Part shown: positions 7,336 to 40,776 of the stretch, one piece after another
Layout: every line of letters begins with the position of its first letter
Position numbering within the stretch: position 1 is the first letter of the stretch
Assembly (NCBI GenBank): GCA_009787835.1
Contig: WQSN01000001.1
Coordinates: 1-64,000 of the forward strand
From: Treponema sp.
GTDB lineage: Bacteria > Spirochaetota > Spirochaetia > Treponematales > Breznakiellaceae
Direction of reading: 5' to 3'
Length of the DNA: 64,000 nucleotides
Notes under the pieces: model-generated
Databases searched by the model: none
The model's input: only the letters and a program-made list of their open reading frames with translations
Told to the model about the DNA's origin: nothing
Position numbers and translations under genes: made by a program

Positions 7336-8772
7336 TCATCCTGCCGCCAGCAGCAGATCTATATCCTTAACTGCGTCGCATAACGCTTTCAGGAAACGCG
7401 CGGCCGGAGCGCCGTCTACCGCCTGATGATCAATTGTAAGACTGAAGCCGATATGAGGCTCAAAAACTGCATTGCAGCAGCCGCAATCGCCATTATCATT
7501 TTCCGCGGCGACGGGTTTCAGTTCAATGCCGCAAACGCCAAGGATGGCGACTTCGGGTACGTTAAGCACCGGAGTAAAACCTGTTATGCCAAGGCTGCCA
7601 AGGTTAGAGACTGAAAAGGTAGAGCCTGAAATTTCTTCAGGTTTCGCGGAGCCGTTCTGGCATGATAACGAGAGCCTTTTTGCCTCTGCTGAAATCTGAA
7701 CCAGCGAAAGCTGGTTTGCATTGCGTATAACGGGAACCATTAAACCGCGCGGGGTGTCAACAGCCATCCCAAGATGAACATTGCTGAAAGTTTTTATTTT
7801 ATCGCCTGTTTTATGGGAGTTCATATAGCTGTAACGCGTTAAAACGCGCGAAACGGCGAAGAGGATCAGATCGTTCACAGTAATTTTGCATAAAACCGGT
7901 TCAGAGAACAGACTGTATGAAGCCTTTATTCTCTCCCGCAATTCATTGAGCCTTAAAACAGAAGCCGATGCGTTTAACGTAAACTGCGCGGTTTCAGAGA
8001 GTGATTTATGCATGCGGTCAGATATGATCTTTCGGATTCCTGTAACGGGAACTTCAGTAAACGGAGCGCTGGAAACGGGAAGCGGGGGAGGGGGAGATGC
8101 AGGTTTTTTAATAATATCTTCCGCTGTTACCTTTCCTACAAAACCTGTGCCTTTTTGAGGAATTGTTCCGTCCGCCGCTTTAGCGGCTGCAGTGAGCGCC
8201 GGCCTGTTCTCAATGGCGGCTAACACATCGCGCTCCATTATTCTTCCCGCAGGGCCTGAACCCTGTAGTGCTTCTTTTGGCACAGCTTCCTTGTCCGCCA
8301 GATTTTTCGCCCTTGGGGAAATAGTCTGCGTGTTGGGAGCGGGAGGCTGTGTTTGCAGAACAGGGATTGATGTATTGTGAACTTGCGGCCTGGAACCTGG
8401 AGCCGGGACAGCGGAAGCGAGGGATTGAATACCCGGAGTATCATTTTTGGTTTGCGTCAGGTTTTCTCGCTTGATACCAGGCTCTATGCTTGCGGTTTTC
8501 GGCTCCCTGTTATCCAATCCCAGTTTCCAATTTTCACCTTCTTCTCCAATAACAGCAATTGGTTCCAAAACAGGTACATCATCGCCTGCCGGATGCAGAA
8601 TTTTTAAAATTTTCCCGGACGCTCCGGCTGGAATTTCAAAAGAAGCCTTGTCTGTTTCAACTTCACATACTACGGTCTCCGATGACACGCTTTCGCCTTC
8701 ATTTACTTTCCAGTCTGTAATGATACAGGATTCAACTGTGTTACCCTGACGGGGCATAATTAAAACATGCAT
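7336..8772 (-). CDS. Dihydrolipoamide acyltransferase (E2) with two E3-binding-like modules
   Basis: The 478-residue E2 core has a single N-terminal lipoyl domain (residues 1-80, lipoyl lysine K42 in ETDKASF) and a Pro/Thr-rich linker. A peripheral-subunit-binding domain follows near 150-190 (GSGPAGRIMERDV). A second, shorter copy of the same type comes immediately after (GTGFVGKVTAEDI, ~205-225). Another Pro-rich linker leads to the acyltransferase domain from ~245. The catalytic D448-H449-x3-D453-G (DHQAVDG) is intact. It would pass an acyl group from lipoate to CoA at the centre of the cytoplasmic complex. The gene lies between deoR and lpdA on the minus strand. The acyl specificity is not evident. 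Confidence 0.88.
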   Translation of the reverse strand: MHVLIMPRQGNTVESCIITDWKVNEGESVSSETVVCEVETDKASFEIPAGASGKILKILHPAGDDVPVLEPIAVIGEEGENWKLGLDNREPKTASIEPGIKRENLTQTKNDTPGIQSLASAVPAPGSRPQVHNTSIPVLQTQPPAPNTQTISPRAKNLADKEAVPKEALQGSGPAGRIMERDVLAAIENRPALTAAAKAADGTIPQKGTGFVGKVTAEDIIKKPASPPPPLPVSSAPFTEVPVTGIRKIISDRMHKSLSETAQFTLNASASVLRLNELRERIKASYSLFSEPVLCKITVNDLILFAVSRVLTRYSYMNSHKTGDKIKTFSNVHLGMAVDTPRGLMVPVIRNANQLSLVQISAEAKRLSLSCQNGSAKPEEISGSTFSVSNLGSLGITGFTPVLNVPEVAILGVCGIELKPVAAENDNGDCGCCNAVFEPHIGFSLTIDHQAVDGAPAARFLKALCDAVKDIDLLLAAG

Positions 8773-33493: not shown

Positions 33494-35887
33494 ATGAGTA
33501 TAAAATCATTGCTTTATAATTGGCGTTATTTTGGAATTGGTCAGGATGAATATGAGAAGTGCTTAAAAAAAACTTTTCCGGATAATATATACAGCCTGCA
33601 AAAGGCAAATATTCTTGTAGCGACCCTGGCGTTTATTTATGTTATTGCCCGCTATTTTATTGATAGTAATGATCCTGTCAGTATGGCCAGAAACATGAGC
33701 GTTTATTTTGCAACCGGTCTTATTGCGTTAATTCAGATATTTTTTATTAACCACAAAATTAAACAGGTTAACAAAAAGAAACCTGTAAGTAATCAGTTGA
33801 TATATGCATTGATCATTATCTATTTTGTTAATGTTATTTTTTTTGGCATATATTTGGGTATTTGGGCAAATCCAGGAAAAATCGCGGGAGCTTTTTTAGG
33901 CATATTAATATGCGCGTTATTTATTTTTGATATACCGGCAATTTTCAGCATGAGCCTTACAGTCAGCGCAGCAATAATTTTTATGATATTAACCAGGATT
34001 GCAACACGAAACGGAATACCGGTCAAGGCTCATGGCGACTGGTTTATTGACTGGTCAAACGCAGTATTCGCCGGGGTAATAGGTATCTACTTTGGCTGGC
34101 ACATTGTCAAATCCAGGATTGGCAAATCTTTACATTCATCGGAAGCGGAAGCCGCAAATAAGGCAAAGTCTGTATTTTTAGCGAACATGAGTCATGAAAT
34201 CCGCACTCCCATGAACAGCATCATCGGATTTACAGAGCTTGCAATGTATGACAATTTGATGCCGAAAACCAGGGATTACCTGATAAAAATTCAAAAAAAT
34301 TCTGAATGGCTGATGCAGTTAATAAATGATATTCTGGATATATCAAAGATTGAATCCGGAAGAATGGAAATTGAAAATATTCCGTTTAACCCGCATGAGA
34401 TACTGGCCGCGTGCCGGACAATGATAATGCCGAAAGCGGTAGAAAAAAATCTGACAATGCATTTTTACGCAGAACCTTCTGTCGGCAAGAGATTGTACGG
34501 CGATCCCATAAAGCTCCACCAGGTGCTTGTAAACCTTCTTTCCAACGCTGTGAAATTTACCAATACCGGCATGATTAAAATGCTCGGCACAATTAAAAAT
34601 ATCAGCGCGGATAAAGTTACAATGTATTTTGAAATTATTGACAGCGGGATCGGAATTACCGCCGATCAAATGAAAAAATTATTTACTCCGTTTACACAGG
34701 CCGAAGCCGGAACTACGCGTAAATTCGGCGGCTCAGGGCTTGGGCTTGTAATTACCAAAAACCTGATAGAAATGATGGGAGGCAAGCTCTGCGTGGAAAC
34801 CACGCCTGGTTTGGGCAGTAAATTCAGTTTTGAGCTGACATTTGACGCAGTGGATGTAGCCGATGAAACCAATCCGTCTGAACGCATACTGTTTGATAAT
34901 AATCTTGAAAAACCAATTTTTGAAGGCGAAGTATTGGTGTGCGAGGACAATGCCATGAATCAGCAGGTTATCTGCGAGCATCTGGCGCAGGTTGGCATAA
35001 AAACAGAAGTAGCAAATAACGGCGAACAGGGCGTCGCTATTGTTCAGAAAAGAGCGCAGAAAATTTTTGAAGCCTCAGACAAAAATAAACCTGCCAATAT
35101 AAAACAATTCGATTTGATATTTATGGATATACATATGCCCGTTATGGACGGAATTGAAGCGACGGAGAAAATAATAGCAATCGACGCGAATATTCCAATT
35201 GTAGCCATGACAGCTAACGTAATTACCGATGACAGGGATATATACCTTTCTACCGGCATGAGGGAATGCGTCAGTAAACCTTTTACATCGCAGGTGTTAT
35301 GGCGCTGTCTCCTGAAATTTTTAAATCCAGTTAAATGGGAAAAAGAACGCATGCTGGAACATGAACATGCCAGCAATGAACTGTATCAGGAACTTATAAA
35401 TCTTTTTGTCAAGAACAACCGTGAGAAATTCAAGGAAATCAAAAACGCGATGAGCATTGGAGATATAGAACTGGCTCACAGGCTTGCGCATACTTTAAAA
35501 GGTAATGCCGGTCAATTAAATAAAGCTCCGCTTGCGAAAGCCGCATCGGAAGTGGAAACCAGCCTTAAAAACGGGGTTAACCTTGTTACATTCGCCCAGA
35601 TGGAAACTCTTAAAGCGGAGTTGAATAATACAATTGAAGAGCTGGAACCATTGGTTCAAATTAAGGAAAAACCGGTTGTTACAGGCGTATTGGACGATGC
35701 GTCCGCCCGTGATTTGCTGGATAAACTGGAGTTAATGCTGAAGAACGGCAACCCCGAGTGTCTGACATTTGTTAATGATCTTGGAATGATACAGGGAAGC
35801 GATGAGCTAATCAATCAGATGGATGATTTTGAATTTAATGAGGCGTTAAAAACCCTTGCCGTATTAAAGAAAAAATATTTTACATAA
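33494..35887 (+). CDS. Hybrid sensor histidine kinase with receiver and Hpt domains
   Basis: The 797-residue membrane protein has about six hydrophobic helices within residues 35-210 and no large periplasmic sensor domain. Next come an HisKA domain (H234 in [16 protein letters not shown]), a HATPase_c domain (N box LLSNAVKF, G boxes DSGIG and GGSGLGL), a receiver domain with phosphoacceptor D545 ([11 protein letters not shown]) and a C-terminal Hpt domain with H666 ([11 protein letters not shown]). It would run an internal His-Asp-His phosphorelay; the output regulator is not in the window. The gene is alone, starts leaderless and overlaps hemW tail to tail by 8 bases. Confidence 0.9.
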
Positions 35888-37052
35888 TTTGCAGCGTCTC
35901 AATTTCAGCAAAAGCCTCTGTTAAAAAATTATTTAAAAAAAACATGATTTTTTTATTATCATTATTCCAGCGTTTAAGCGTCTGCGGAATACAGTCCTCA
36001 ATTCCCATGCCAAACCGGCGTCTGAATTTTTCCCTGTCAATGCCGCCGCGGCTACGAAACCCCATAAGCATGCTTTCTTTTATTAATGATTTTTTATCCA
36101 GTTCTTCAAAAGTTGTCAGTTTTAGATAATCTGTTCTTTCAGGTTTTTTCGTTCTTCCGGTATTAATATAGCCTTCAATATCAGACTTATATGTAAAGCG
36201 TTTGGCGGTTCCTGTTTCTTCGTCAATTAACGTGCCGGATGCGGCAGGACCCGCGCCTAGCCAGCTATCCATGTGCCAGTAGCGTAAATTGTGAAGGCAT
36301 TGTCTGCCTGGCAGCGCGAAACTGGAAACCTCATAATGTTCATAACCGGCTTTTTCCAGCGCGTTCTTCCCCGCGAGCCACATCAAGTCCGCTTCTTCGC
36401 ATAACGGTACTGACAGTTGTTTTGATTTCAAATTTTCTTCCAGAGGCGTTCCGTCTTCAACAGACAGACTGTAAAATGAAACATGCGCGGGTTTATAATC
36501 AAGAAGCCTTTTAATATCTTCCAGTATATTTTTTTTACTCTGATACGGAAAACCTGCGATAAGATCGGCGGAAAATGCGTCCGGGAATAAATGCGAAACC
36601 ATGGTAAGGCATTTTTCCAGCATGTCAGCCTGCCCGATACGGTTAACCGCTTTCCGTGATGGTTCATGAAAACTCTGCACGCCGAGACTGATTCTATTTA
36701 TGCCTCCTTCAATACAGGCTGATAAAAATTCTTCATCAGTTGATTCTGGGTTTGCTTCTGTTGTAAATTCCGCAGGCGCGAAACATGAAAAAGATTTTAA
36801 CGCTTCAAGCAGCATCAGGAAACGTTTTGCACCTAACACTGACGGGGTTCCCCCGCCTATGTACGCTGTAACAATTTCCTTTACATTGAAATACTCAAAT
36901 TGACACCTGATATCTTCAATGACCTGTTTGACAAATTTATCCAGAACAGAATCGCATTTTTTTTCCGCGATGACAGAATAAAAATCACAATAATCGCAGA
37001 ATGAGGAACAAAAAGGAATATGTATATAAAGGGAAAAACATGATTGCCGCAC
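35880..37052 (-). CDS. hemW: HemW-like radical SAM protein
   Basis: The 390-residue protein is of the oxygen-independent coproporphyrinogen oxidase-like type. The iron-sulfur cysteines are C15-x3-C19-x2-C22 (CSSFCDYC), followed by [29 protein letters not shown] and the HemN_C region with [19 protein letters not shown] are typical of HemW, a heme-binding chaperone rather than the true oxidase. It starts at GTG three bases after the signal peptidase-like gene, so it is the third member of the lepB operon. The stop overlaps the convergent kinase gene by 8 bases. Confidence 0.88.
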
Positions 37053-37055
37053 TTG

Positions 37056-37793
37056 TTATAAAAGGGAAATTTTTACAATCGGCCAGAAGCGCAGAATCGC
37101 TGTGGCAGTAATCAACGATGATGAAACCGGTCCCCATGTGCGGGAATCATTAGTATTGCTGCGATCATCTGCAACAACAAAACATTCGTCAGGACCAAGA
37201 ATTATTGGATCCATGCTGCCTGAAAAAGGTATTGATTCATTCCAGAGCGCGGGCGTTTGGGGAATCATCGGATGATACGGTTTTTCAGAAAGCTCAAATT
37301 CTGTAAGGCTGAATGAACCGCCGGCAGGTTTTACCCTGAATACATAATTCTCCATATAGACTTCATCGCCGGGAAGAGCGATTACCCGTTTGATGTAATA
37401 TTGTTCTACTATCGAATTTGAAAAAATACTGATTCGCTGCGCGGTAAAAAACCTTACAATGCCGTCAACAATCTTTAATGGAACATTCCGCTCCTTTGTA
37501 TCTCCCATGTCTATCAATACAATGCTTCCGCGTTTATACGGAAGTGAATCACTTTTTCCTGTTATTTTTCCCGGCAGCGTAAAGGATGTAAAAATGATCC
37601 TGTCACCTGCAGCGAGTCCATTCTGCATGTTATCATTGTCCAATACCCAGACAGAAATAAAAAATGTTACCAGGCAATTGTATAATATGTATAAAGCCAA
37701 AAAAATTAAAATAAATTTTACAAACCGGTGACGGTGTTTCTTTTGTTCCTTGAAAGAGTACTTTCTTCTTTTATCATAACTGTTTTTATCCAT
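37056..37793 (-). CDS. Signal peptidase I-like protein with Asn in place of catalytic Ser
   Basis: The 245-residue type II membrane protein has a basic N-terminus, one transmembrane segment (~25-50) and the S26 fold: box B VLDNDNMQNGLAAGD, box D YYIKRVIALPGDEV with general-base K135, and box E DDRSNTNDSRTWG. The residue before Met in box B, normally the nucleophilic Ser (SM-x-P-T-L), is Asn55, and the following PTL is NGL. As read it should not cleave by the Ser/Lys mechanism, unless another residue substitutes. It lies 8 bases after an intact paralogue and three before hemW. It may be an inactive partner, a regulator of the active enzyme, or carry a different function. Confidence 0.82.
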   Translation of the reverse strand: MDKNSYDKRRKYSFKEQKKHRHRFVKFILIFLALYILYNCLVTFFISVWVLDNDNMQNGLAAGDRIIFTSFTLPGKITGKSDSLPYKRGSIVLIDMGDTKERNVPLKIVDGIVRFFTAQRISIFSNSIVEQYYIKRVIALPGDEVYMENYVFRVKPAGGSFSLTEFELSEKPYHPMIPQTPALWNESIPFSGSMDPIILGPDECFVVADDRSNTNDSRTWGPVSSSLITATAILRFWPIVKISLL

Positions 37794-37801
37794 AAAAAAC
37801 C

Positions 37802-38875
37802 TTAAATTATTTTTCCTATCCGCCCCAAGGGCCAGTAAATTATCATTCCCTTGCCAAGCACTCTTGATACTTTGACAGGCCCAAAATACCGCCCGTCTCT
37901 AGAATTATCGCGATTATCTCCCAAAGGGAAAACCCGTCCTTCGGGCACATACCAGCCAAGAGTATGCCGGGCAAGAAGCGCGGCATAACGCTTTTCATGC
38001 GGAGATGTTTTTCTGAGCGTTTCAAGCCTTGCCTTCTCATGGGCAAGATAATCGGGCGCTTTCAGATTTCCGGTGTTCTGCGCTTCATTTATTAGTTTCT
38101 CGGGAGCGTTCAAACCTATGTCCGATAATGCTGCGGCCTGTCCTGCCGCGACAAGCGCGGGGTATTGATTTTGCTGCATTATACGGCTGATATTATGATT
38201 CCAGCTGCGGGATGTAAAATATTGATTTTCTTCCACCCAGCGGTCTTCTCCGGAAAATAGAATCTTCATATCGCCGTTCTCTGTAATGAAACGGTCGCCT
38301 GCCGTTCCTGCTGCGCGTTTTATAAGAAAATGAACCCTTGGCTCTCCTGAGACATCCCTGTCAATATCAACCAATGAAAGGGTAAGCATATAGATAATAC
38401 GCTGAGCAATGTCAAAAACAGGGCCTTTGGAAATATATGATGGATTTTCAAAAATGATAATATCGTTTCTTATAGGCTTTATTGGGCTTGGCACTTTCAG
38501 AATACCGGGGAGCAATTCAGGCCCAAACACGATTTTATTGACAAAAACATGGTCGCCGATATTAAGAGAGTCGATCATTGAACCTGAAGGAATCCTGTAA
38601 GCCTGCACCAGATACTGATTAATCAATAACACCATACCGGCAGCCCATAAAAAAGCTTCTATCCAATCTATTATTGGATTTTTAGCCTTTCGCTTTTCTT
38701 TTTTTATACGGTGAATCCTTCTGCGGCGGGTAAGGTAAGTTTCAGTGACTGCCTGGACTCTGTCGAAAAAATCAGGATGGGAACCATCTTTTTTCAGGCG
38801 CGGTTGTTTTTCCGGAAGAGAATCTTCGCTCTTTAGTCCCTGTCGAGGTTCAGGCTGTTTGGATGTAGACGACAC
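37802..38875 (-). CDS. lepB: Signal peptidase I
   Basis: The 357-residue S26 peptidase has a charged, Lys/Arg-rich N-terminal cytosolic tail of ~70 residues, a membrane segment (~72-92) and catalytic S99 (IPSGSMIDSLNIGD) with K186 (FLIKRAAGTAGDRF). Between the catalytic Lys region and box E (GDNRDNSRDGRYFG) lies an insertion of roughly 100 mostly charged residues, making it longer than usual enzymes. It removes signal peptides at the outer face of the inner membrane. It heads the operon with the Asn-variant paralogue and hemW. The GTG start sits five bases from a perfect TATAAT box, suggesting a leaderless message. Confidence 0.9.
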   Translation of the reverse strand: MSSTSKQPEPRQGLKSEDSLPEKQPRLKKDGSHPDFFDRVQAVTETYLTRRRRIHRIKKEKRKAKNPIIDWIEAFLWAAGMVLLINQYLVQAYRIPSGSMIDSLNIGDHVFVNKIVFGPELLPGILKVPSPIKPIRNDIIIFENPSYISKGPVFDIAQRIIYMLTLSLVDIDRDVSGEPRVHFLIKRAAGTAGDRFITENGDMKILFSGEDRWVEENQYFTSRSWNHNISRIMQQNQYPALVAAGQAAALSDIGLNAPEKLINEAQNTGNLKAPDYLAHEKARLETLRKTSPHEKRYAALLARHTLGWYVPEGRVFPLGDNRDNSRDGRYFGPVKVSRVLGKGMIIYWPLGRIGKII

Positions 38876-38989: not shown

Positions 38990-40045
38990 GTGATTTTATT
39001 GTTTTTTTGGGTAAAAATAGCCGCAAAAAAATTTATAAGTTTATTAAAAGTATCTCCCGTTATAATCATTTTTACTGTAATATTTACAGGAGCATTTTTA
39101 TATGCATTCGTAAATAATCATATCGTATTAAATCCTGATTCATGGACATTATATCTTATTATTTTATTTTTTGTCTTAATTTCTGTGTTGAATTCATTAA
39201 AAAGATATAATGTAACTCCGGTATTACTGGCATATTCTAAAAGTAAAAACAGCAATAAACATATTTGTATAATGTTTTTTATTAAAAGGGCCTTATTAAA
39301 TAATTTATTTTTAATAATTATTAATATCTTCGCCTATAATATAAATAGTATTACATTAATCTGTATAACAGTATTTTCTGTATTTATTTCTTTTCTGATA
39401 ATGTATCTAAAAAATATATATATAAATATTAAAATTAAAAATAATACAGAAAAAATATTGAAAATTAATCCAAAAATAAAAAGCATAATATATGATTATC
39501 TGACTTCAGATTTTTCCGCTATGACGGTTTTATGTATAACCATGTTCTTAATTCTTGTAAATGAATTCTCGAAAAATTCCGCATTTGATAATGATTTAAA
39601 AACGCAGACTCATTTTTTTATGCTGTTAACAATCATATTCGGTCTGGGATTTATTGGAATAATAGATTCAATACGAAATATAAACCGGAAATTCCACGCC
39701 ATATTGTCCGCGAATGATTTAAAATATCATGTTAAAAGGACCATTTTATTCCTTGCCGGAATCTATTGCTGGTTATTTGCTGTTTTTATTTATTTTGGCT
39801 TTACTGTAAGTGCCGCACTTATGTTTAAATATATATTTTGTATTTTAATTTTGTTTATGATATCAATATTTATGGCGTTTACAATAACAAATATACTGTT
39901 AAAATCAATTATTATGATTCTTTTACTGGCCTTTACTGTATGGATTAGCTCTTTAACGTCTCCATTTTTAATAGCGCTTATAATACCGCTTGTTTTTGCA
40001 TTTGCGAAAGCAAAAAATGAATACAGGGAGTGGTTTTTATTATGA
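38990..40045 (+). CDS. ABC-2-type multi-spanning membrane protein (permease)
   Basis: The 351-residue, very hydrophobic protein has about eight to ten predicted membrane helices and no soluble domain. No motif identifies it alone; the ATG of an ABC ATPase overlaps its stop by ATGA, so it is read as the membrane half of an ABC-2-type transporter. Base composition is strikingly AT-rich, with many Ile/Asn/Lys codons ending in A or T, unlike the flanking genes, which suggests recent acquisition or relaxed selection. GTG 38990 follows a TATAAT box by seven bases. The cargo is unknown; small peptides, lipids or drugs are typical of such pairs. Confidence 0.7.
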   Translation: MILLFFWVKIAAKKFISLLKVSPVIIIFTVIFTGAFLYAFVNNHIVLNPDSWTLYLIILFFVLISVLNSLKRYNVTPVLLAYSKSKNSNKHICIMFFIKRALLNNLFLIIINIFAYNINSITLICITVFSVFISFLIMYLKNIYINIKIKNNTEKILKINPKIKSIIYDYLTSDFSAMTVLCITMFLILVNEFSKNSAFDNDLKTQTHFFMLLTIIFGLGFIGIIDSIRNINRKFHAILSANDLKYHVKRTILFLAGIYCWLFAVFIYFGFTVSAALMFKYIFCILILFMISIFMAFTITNILLKSIIMILLLAFTVWISSLTSPFLIALIIPLVFAFAKAKNEYREWFLL

Positions 40046-40776
40046 TACTCTGTGAAAACCTTTCCAAAACATTCAATTCCGGTTCGGGTATAAAAAATAT
40101 TAATCTTCAGTTTCTTCCCGGATTCATTTACGGCATTATAGGTTATAACGGAGCGGGAAAAACCACGCTATTGAACTGTATCGAAGGTTTATATACTGCA
40201 ACATCGGGATTTGTGTTACACAATGACATTAAAACAACCAATGAAAAAGATTTTGTCTCAATTCGCAGAAAAATAGCCTTTTTGCCAAGTGATGAATATT
40301 TGTATCCAATGTTATCATGTTCCGAGAATATTGAACTTGCGACAATCTTGAAAACCGGTAAAAATAAACTGCTCAATGAAACAGAAGCGCTGATAAAGTA
40401 TTTTGAAGTTGATAAATATTTAAATAAAAGATTCCGGGAATGTTCAACAGGAATGAAAAAGAAAGTGCAAATTGTCATCAGTCTGATAGGCGGCATTGAT
40501 ACCATTATTTGGGATGAACCAAATGACGGTCTTGATATAGTTTCCAATATAAAAATTAAAAATCTGCTGAAATACTATAAAAGTAAAAATGTTACGGTGC
40601 TTTTTTCAAGTCATGTTATAGAGTTCCTTGATAATTTTATAGACAAATTTGTCCTGCTGAATGAAGGTGAAGTTATTGATAATAATGATATAAAAAACAT
40701 CAGCTCGCTTGAAGAATTATTTATTAAAAATATGCTTCCCGATGATCAGGTAACTGATTTGTTTTTTAACAAATAA
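40042..40776 (+). CDS. ABC transporter ATP-binding protein
   Basis: The 244-residue nucleotide-binding domain has Walker A GYNGAGKTT (near 34-42), a signature region ECSTGMKKKVQI in the form common to ABC-2 systems, Walker B TIIWDEPNDGLD and H-loop SSHV. It lies immediately after the membrane gene with an ATGA overlap; the upstream in-frame GTG at 40030 is less likely. It powers the partner permease. It shares the AT-rich composition of the pair. It converges on amrS with an 11-base tail overlap. Confidence 0.9.
   Translation: MILCENLSKTFNSGSGIKNINLQFLPGFIYGIIGYNGAGKTTLLNCIEGLYTATSGFVLHNDIKTTNEKDFVSIRRKIAFLPSDEYLYPMLSCSENIELATILKTGKNKLLNETEALIKYFEVDKYLNKRFRECSTGMKKKVQIVISLIGGIDTIIWDEPNDGLDIVSNIKIKNLLKYYKSKNVTVLFSSHVIEFLDNFIDKFVLLNEGEVIDNNDIKNISSLEELFIKNMLPDDQVTDLFFNK

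Follow-up and report, generated by a model that had tools for sequence, protein, structure and literature searches.

A tandem pair of signal peptidase I (SPase I) genes lies within the window analysed here, a 64,000 nucleotide stretch of a Treponema sp. genome (positions 1–64,000 of contig WQSN01000001.1, assembly GCA_009787835.1; a draft of 3.08 Mb in 143 contigs). The two products are referred to as LepS and LepN, names coined in the present analysis. LepN is best explained as the product of the second gene copy left by an ancient tandem duplication of SPase I among spirochaetes and, across the class Spirochaetia, as a protein whose selected function is independent of the Ser-Lys catalytic dyad in most lineages. 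A mainly non-catalytic, selected role for LepN in species with a broken dyad, including that of the window, is considered probable (about 0.66). The relevant features are:

37056–37793, minus strand: lepN, dyad-broken signal peptidase I paralogue of 245 amino acids (aa), ATG start, assigned by PF10502 and motif reading
37802–38875, minus strand: lepS, canonical signal peptidase I of 357 aa, GTG start, with S99, K186 and S325, assigned by PF10502
37620–37643, minus strand: box B of lepN, with codons AAC (N55) and AAT (N58), read directly
35880–37052, minus strand: hemW (TIGR00539, 223 bits), downstream in the same apparent operon

The sequence and the family profile scores agree with the original prediction of tandem signal peptidase genes on the minus strand. 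LepS scores 100.5 bits and LepN 72.2 bits against PF10502 (Pfam cut-off 22.9); against TIGR02227, the NCBIfam equivalog model for SPase I, they reach 91.5 and 69 (cut-off 47), so automatic annotation would label both proteins as active. The upstream gene retains S99 and K186, as had been claimed, in the motifs YRIPSGS99MIDSL and LIK186RAAGTAGD. The downstream paralogue reads LDNDN55MQN58GLAAGD, again as first described, where S-M-x-P is expected, followed by YYIK135RVIALPGDEV and the box E sequence ADDRSNTNDSRTWGPV (DDRSNT214NDSRTWG). In E. coli the residues corresponding to its N53, N55 and T214 are Ser88, Ser90 and Ser278. The statement that LepN keeps the Lys and box E thus stands for K135 and falls short for box E, which is incomplete at the Ser278 equivalent. 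The window's LepN is unable to act as a Ser-Lys protease because Asn55 cannot substitute for Ser. A single base change would turn the Asn55 codon into one for Thr, the norm in the genus, but Asn58 occupies a position where 159 of 163 orthologues have Pro and needs two base changes; a single sequencing error therefore does not account for box B.

The 163 LepN orthologues aligned come from 33 spirochaete family groups. Their nucleophile column contains Ser (64), Thr (56), Ala (26), Asn (4), Gly (4), Ile (3), Val (3) and Glu (3), so that the box B Ser is missing from 99. At the Lys position there are 115 Lys and 30 Arg, then Ser, Leu, Glu, Val, Tyr, Ala and others, Lys being absent from 48. The Ser278 column has Thr (81), Ser (32), Ala (14), Gly (7), Phe (6) and others, and the Ser88 column has Asn (70), Ser (69), Thr (14), Gly (8) and Ala (2). 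Ser and Lys occur together in just 36/163 LepN sequences, compared to all 124 LepS sequences that cover both sites, a result that supports the pseudoenzyme proposed for the window's protein and extends it well beyond that species. The nucleophile position holds neither Ser nor Thr in 43 sequences, 77 lack a usable nucleophile, the Lys or both, and 26 of the 33 families have at least one dyad-broken member. By contrast, several other positions are close to invariant: M56 (163 sequences), R136 (162), D143 (162), D209 (161), R211 (159), D216 (159), S217 (162) and G221 (162). Judged from the alignment, replacements have occurred time and again, and along more than one route, at the nucleophile, at the general base and at both the Lys-orienting and the oxyanion Ser, while purifying selection continues to act on the fold and on the structural positions within boxes B, D and E.

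The routes of loss differ between families. In the family of the window (f1), Lys is found in 78/81 sequences and the nucleophile is Thr, Ala, Ser, Asn, Ile or Gly. Family f3 mostly retains the Ser, but has Arg in place of Lys in 15/16 members; in family f4 all eight members have Glu, Val, Leu, Gln or Tyr instead of Lys, and Borreliaceae-like genomes (f24) encode a LepN with Glu at the nucleophile and no Lys. Within the window's genus, the 37 congeners show the pairs Thr-Lys (27), Ser-Lys (3), Ala-Lys (3), Ile-Lys (2), Asn-Lys (1) and Ala-Arg (1). Asn at the nucleophile is private to the window's species among these, and the idea that it might be conserved in related treponemes was not borne out (1/37 congeners and 4/163 orthologues).

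Two trees were reconstructed with the trait columns left out; many of their inner branches are weakly supported, making the counts of change approximate. The nucleophile column requires at least 56–57 changes, and the minimum numbers are 33–34 for Ser versus not-Ser, 23–24 for the dyad state and 15 for the Lys state. Structural columns require 0–2 changes, except for Pro58 (4) and Arg218 (12). Empirical-Bayes site rates for LepN and LepS are 0.39 versus 0.02 at the nucleophile, 0.23 versus 0.02 at the Lys and 0.28 versus 0.02 at the Ser278 position, and LepN rates at M56, R136 and D209 are about 0.03. Ratios of non-synonymous to synonymous substitution rates (dN/dS, by NG86 unless stated) in close pairs of dyad-broken lepN genes are 0.07–0.30, with one Thr/Ala pair at 0.50; by type, the Ile pair gives 0.10, Ala pairs 0.15–0.30 and Thr-Lys pairs 0.07–0.11. 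The values for lepS and hemW in the same pairs are similar to those of lepN or somewhat lower. This is the pattern that marks a pseudoprotease, catalytic residues having been lost while the homologues remain under purifying selection.

Two outgroup families outside the class (f47 and f60) also have a second copy, which at most of the loci seen is flanked by a long LepS upstream and hemW downstream, and it retains Ser, Lys and Ser278 in 6/6 cases. The outgroup tandem being intact, the second copy was ancestrally active. The simplest history suggested by these sequences would be an ancestral tandem of two active enzymes, the second of which then lost catalysis repeatedly inside the class.

An AlphaFold2 model of LepN, built on an alignment of 88 sequences, has a mean predicted local distance difference test score of 87.9 and consists of a long N-terminal helix (residues 6–45) and a beta domain. 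The best match among solved structures is E. coli SPase I (1t7d; Z 15.8, 146 residues, 2.5 Å), followed by S. pyogenes SipA (Z 14.2) and S. aureus SpsB (Z 13.5). Together with the profile scores, the SPase fold places LepN in family S26 by homology. Outside the active site, E165 (160 of 163 orthologues), Y173 (159), W184 (143) and F115 (153) are conserved in LepN; E165 and Y173 are common to the active outgroup copies and W184 and F115 are not. These four residues could form a binding surface.

LepN is present in 137 of 149 genomes, mostly of the window's genus, family and order, and a LepN-profile match is found in 287/297 genomes of the class, an upper bound as LepS is matched too. A scan of named genome contigs with the window's LepN confirmed no relative in them, and a scan of the same contigs with the alignment profile gave six spirochaete loci, two of them in Treponema sp. 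metagenome-assembled genomes, the other matches being ordinary signal peptidases from other phyla. The closest named relatives of the window's genome are Treponema/Spirochaetaceae metagenome-assembled genomes, presumably allied to the treponemes of termite guts. The gene lepS lies immediately upstream of lepN at 120/153 loci and hemW immediately downstream at 124/151. In the window the gaps are 8 bp (lepS–lepN) and 3 bp (lepN–hemW), and this spacing and the synteny suggest that the three genes are co-transcribed. From the synteny we also infer that LepN may have a regulatory role or form a heterodimer with the active enzyme; the first had been proposed, the second raised as a point to check.

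Several observations weigh against a non-catalytic role. Ser, Lys and the Ser278 equivalent are found together in 15 of the 163 LepN sequences, and from their motifs some of the 36 dyad-intact members are probably active; the family is likely to be a mixture of active and inactive forms. The Ser278 equivalent is commoner where the dyad is intact (15/36 versus 17/127; Fisher p 0.0005, with few informative pairs in a phylogenetic-pairs test), as might be expected if catalysis is under selection in the lineages concerned. The nucleophile column, at the 22nd percentile of LepN rates, evolves more slowly than the median site, so small residues are favoured there. The Borreliaceae-like pair is less constrained, with a dN/dS of 0.47 (YN00 0.70). 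In four families (f8, f13, f14 and f22) LepS appeared to be the sole copy, with hemW next after it, which makes LepN dispensable there. In family f3 lepS is located elsewhere in the genome and lepN adjoins hemW in 16/16 cases.

LepN might instead still be a peptidase whose chemistry has changed: Thr (or Ser) would pair with Lys or Arg in a slower or narrower reaction, and minority losses would account for the forms with Asn, Ala, Ile, Val, Gly or Glu. Thr-Lys is the commonest state (50/158, and the 27 congeners noted above), nearly all members of the window's family keep the Lys, and the preference for small residues at the nucleophile would be in keeping with this. We regard it as rather unlikely, given that the 43 non-nucleophilic forms are scattered among the Thr forms with purifying selection persisting (as in the Ile pair), that 48 sequences have no Lys, and that the window's own protein has Asn. 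We know of no type I signal peptidases with a Thr-Lys dyad. A changed chemistry specific to Asn, one of the options first put forward for the window's protein, is not supported, Asn being no conserved new catalytic residue; at 4/163 it is ruled out as a conserved alternative. A slightly less likely account again is that LepN is active but largely redundant and on its way out, with neutral decay of catalysis and then of the gene, and no new function. The absence of the gene from several families, the eroded remnants of 184–194 aa in genus g58, the higher dN/dS of the Borreliaceae-like pair and the 36 dyad-intact members are in its favour. Full-length dyad-broken copies in 26/33 families, with near-invariant structural residues and low dN/dS, speak against it, and neutral decay would not spare M56, R136, D209 and S217 amid dozens of dyad changes.

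It is very improbable that the Asn reflects a private mutation or a sequencing error in a single metagenome-assembled genome and that the gene is otherwise ordinary. The residue is rare (4/163) and the window comes from a draft of many contigs, but box B has two separate changes, one of them requiring two bases, and with Thr as the genus norm a one-base correction would give no canonical dyad. Isolated mutation or sequencing error is rejected as a full account in view of the two private changes and the Thr norm, and the orthologues have largely refuted it. The existence of Ser-bearing orthologues had been named as the finding that would point to such an error. Formally such orthologues exist, but the majority carry Thr, Ala, Asn, Gly, Ile, Val or Glu instead, and in many of the Ser-bearing forms the Lys is gone.

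Under the non-catalytic reading, LepN would be attached to the inner membrane, its S26 domain lying on the periplasmic side, and the likeliest mechanism is that of a membrane scaffold. The retained peptide-binding cleft and the LepN-conserved residues may bind exported proteins or signal peptides, or else LepS, and LepN would thereby assist or tune processing by the intact LepS from the same operon. Bacterial signal peptidases are usually taken to act alone. As a tentative extension, doubtful at present, the spirochaete signal peptidase may consist of two subunits, LepS performing the cleavage and LepN, a former peptidase retained by most of the class, serving as a dedicated subunit without catalysis that would present or select substrates. 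In that case what is annotated as a second 'signal peptidase I' in the agents of syphilis and Lyme disease would be no peptidase.

Inactive SPase paralogues are already known, namely SipA and SpsA. S. pyogenes SipA, with its dyad replaced (Asp48/Gly85), has no detected peptidase activity and is essential for pilus polymerisation (PMC4049620; PDB 4n31, 4k8w); its dyad-equivalent residues can be mutated without functional loss, and some SipA homologues retain the dyad (PMC4049620). It is the best-tested precedent for LepN, sharing the SPase I fold, a retained peptide cleft and a replaced dyad, and among distinct proteins compared by structure only E. coli SPase comes closer. However, SipA is encoded in a pilus operon with a sortase, whereas LepN is in a housekeeping operon with lepS and hemW, is distributed over a whole class of bacteria and has box E of the LepB type. 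The pilin and sortase neighbours expected of SipA-type pilus assembly are not seen beside lepN, where the neighbours are lepS and hemW. S. aureus SpsA, an inactive and dispensable SPase I paralogue without two conserved catalytic residues, shares its cell with the active SpsB (PMC12445088). By description, not by sequence, SpsA resembles LepN as an inactive paralogue in a cell with an active enzyme, but it is reported for staphylococci, unlike LepN, which derives from a spirochaete duplication with many independent dyad losses. LepN belongs to the same family and fold as E. coli LepB (Z 15.8), with boxes B–E recognisable and structural residues retained, but the positions of the catalytic Ser90, Lys145, Ser278 and Ser88 are not conserved.

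In a 1.14 Mb single-contig genome of family f3, LepN (Ser with Arg) precedes hemW, EF-Tu and a ribosomal protein resembling L3, and an intact LepS (a 612 aa open reading frame, ORF) is encoded near 1,008 kb. This order fits the TP0185 region of Treponema pallidum. This T. pallidum-sized genome, with LepN-hemW-tuf and a distant LepS, resembles the TP0185/TP0926 arrangement, and Borreliaceae-like genomes carry the LepS-LepN tandem, like BB0030/BB0031 of Borrelia burgdorferi. We take TP0185 and BB0031 to be the LepN equivalents, and the two pathogens' pairs to belong to the LepS and LepN groups, matching to these locus tags being based on gene order. The Borreliaceae-like LepN has Glu and no Lys, and the T. 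pallidum-like LepN has Ser and Arg. Published papers list TPASS_20185 and BB0031 as signal peptidase I.

If the non-catalytic role is correct, the annotation of a gene found across most of the class, including the syphilis and Lyme disease agents, would change from enzyme to probable pseudoenzyme. No discussion of the spirochaete signal peptidase dyad was found in the searchable literature (subscription papers were outside its scope, making prior notice possible). Within the searchable papers, a spirochaete-wide family, its many independent dyad losses and the doubt cast on the annotation of the pathogens' second signal peptidase appear to be new. LepN offers an unusually clear natural series, in which an intact ancestor was followed by many independent losses of the dyad along different routes and by a few gene losses; it lets one ask when and why a protease stays selected minus its chemistry. 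It also raises the question of a dedicated partner subunit for bacterial signal peptidases.

In genus g58 (family f4), LepN remnants of 184–194 aa lie between lepS and hemW (L185:2380–2931 and L186:2369–2950); the Lys box and box E are not recognisable, and these are apparently the end stage of LepN decay. Long LepS proteins, about twice the usual length, are encoded by the 612 aa ORF of the 1.14 Mb genome and by ORFs of 670–706 aa in f47 and f60; in these proteins (L201, L213, L219–L222, L224 and L234) the N-terminus is extended by a hydrophobic stretch and boxes D and E are separated by a long insert. Family f54 (L215–L218) has an S26 protein with the motif S-S-T-M (Thr at the nucleophile) and an intact Lys, distant from hemW. 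The genome of the window carries a third S26 gene of 126 aa (contig C7, about 8,286–8,666; L033:1381–1761), divergent from a LysM/M23-type peptidase gene and with its S-M, K-R and D-S-R motifs intact. Upstream of lepS (38990–40776 of the window) is a divergent gene pair overlapping by a few bases, encoding a 351 aa protein with multiple membrane spans and an ABC transporter ATPase.
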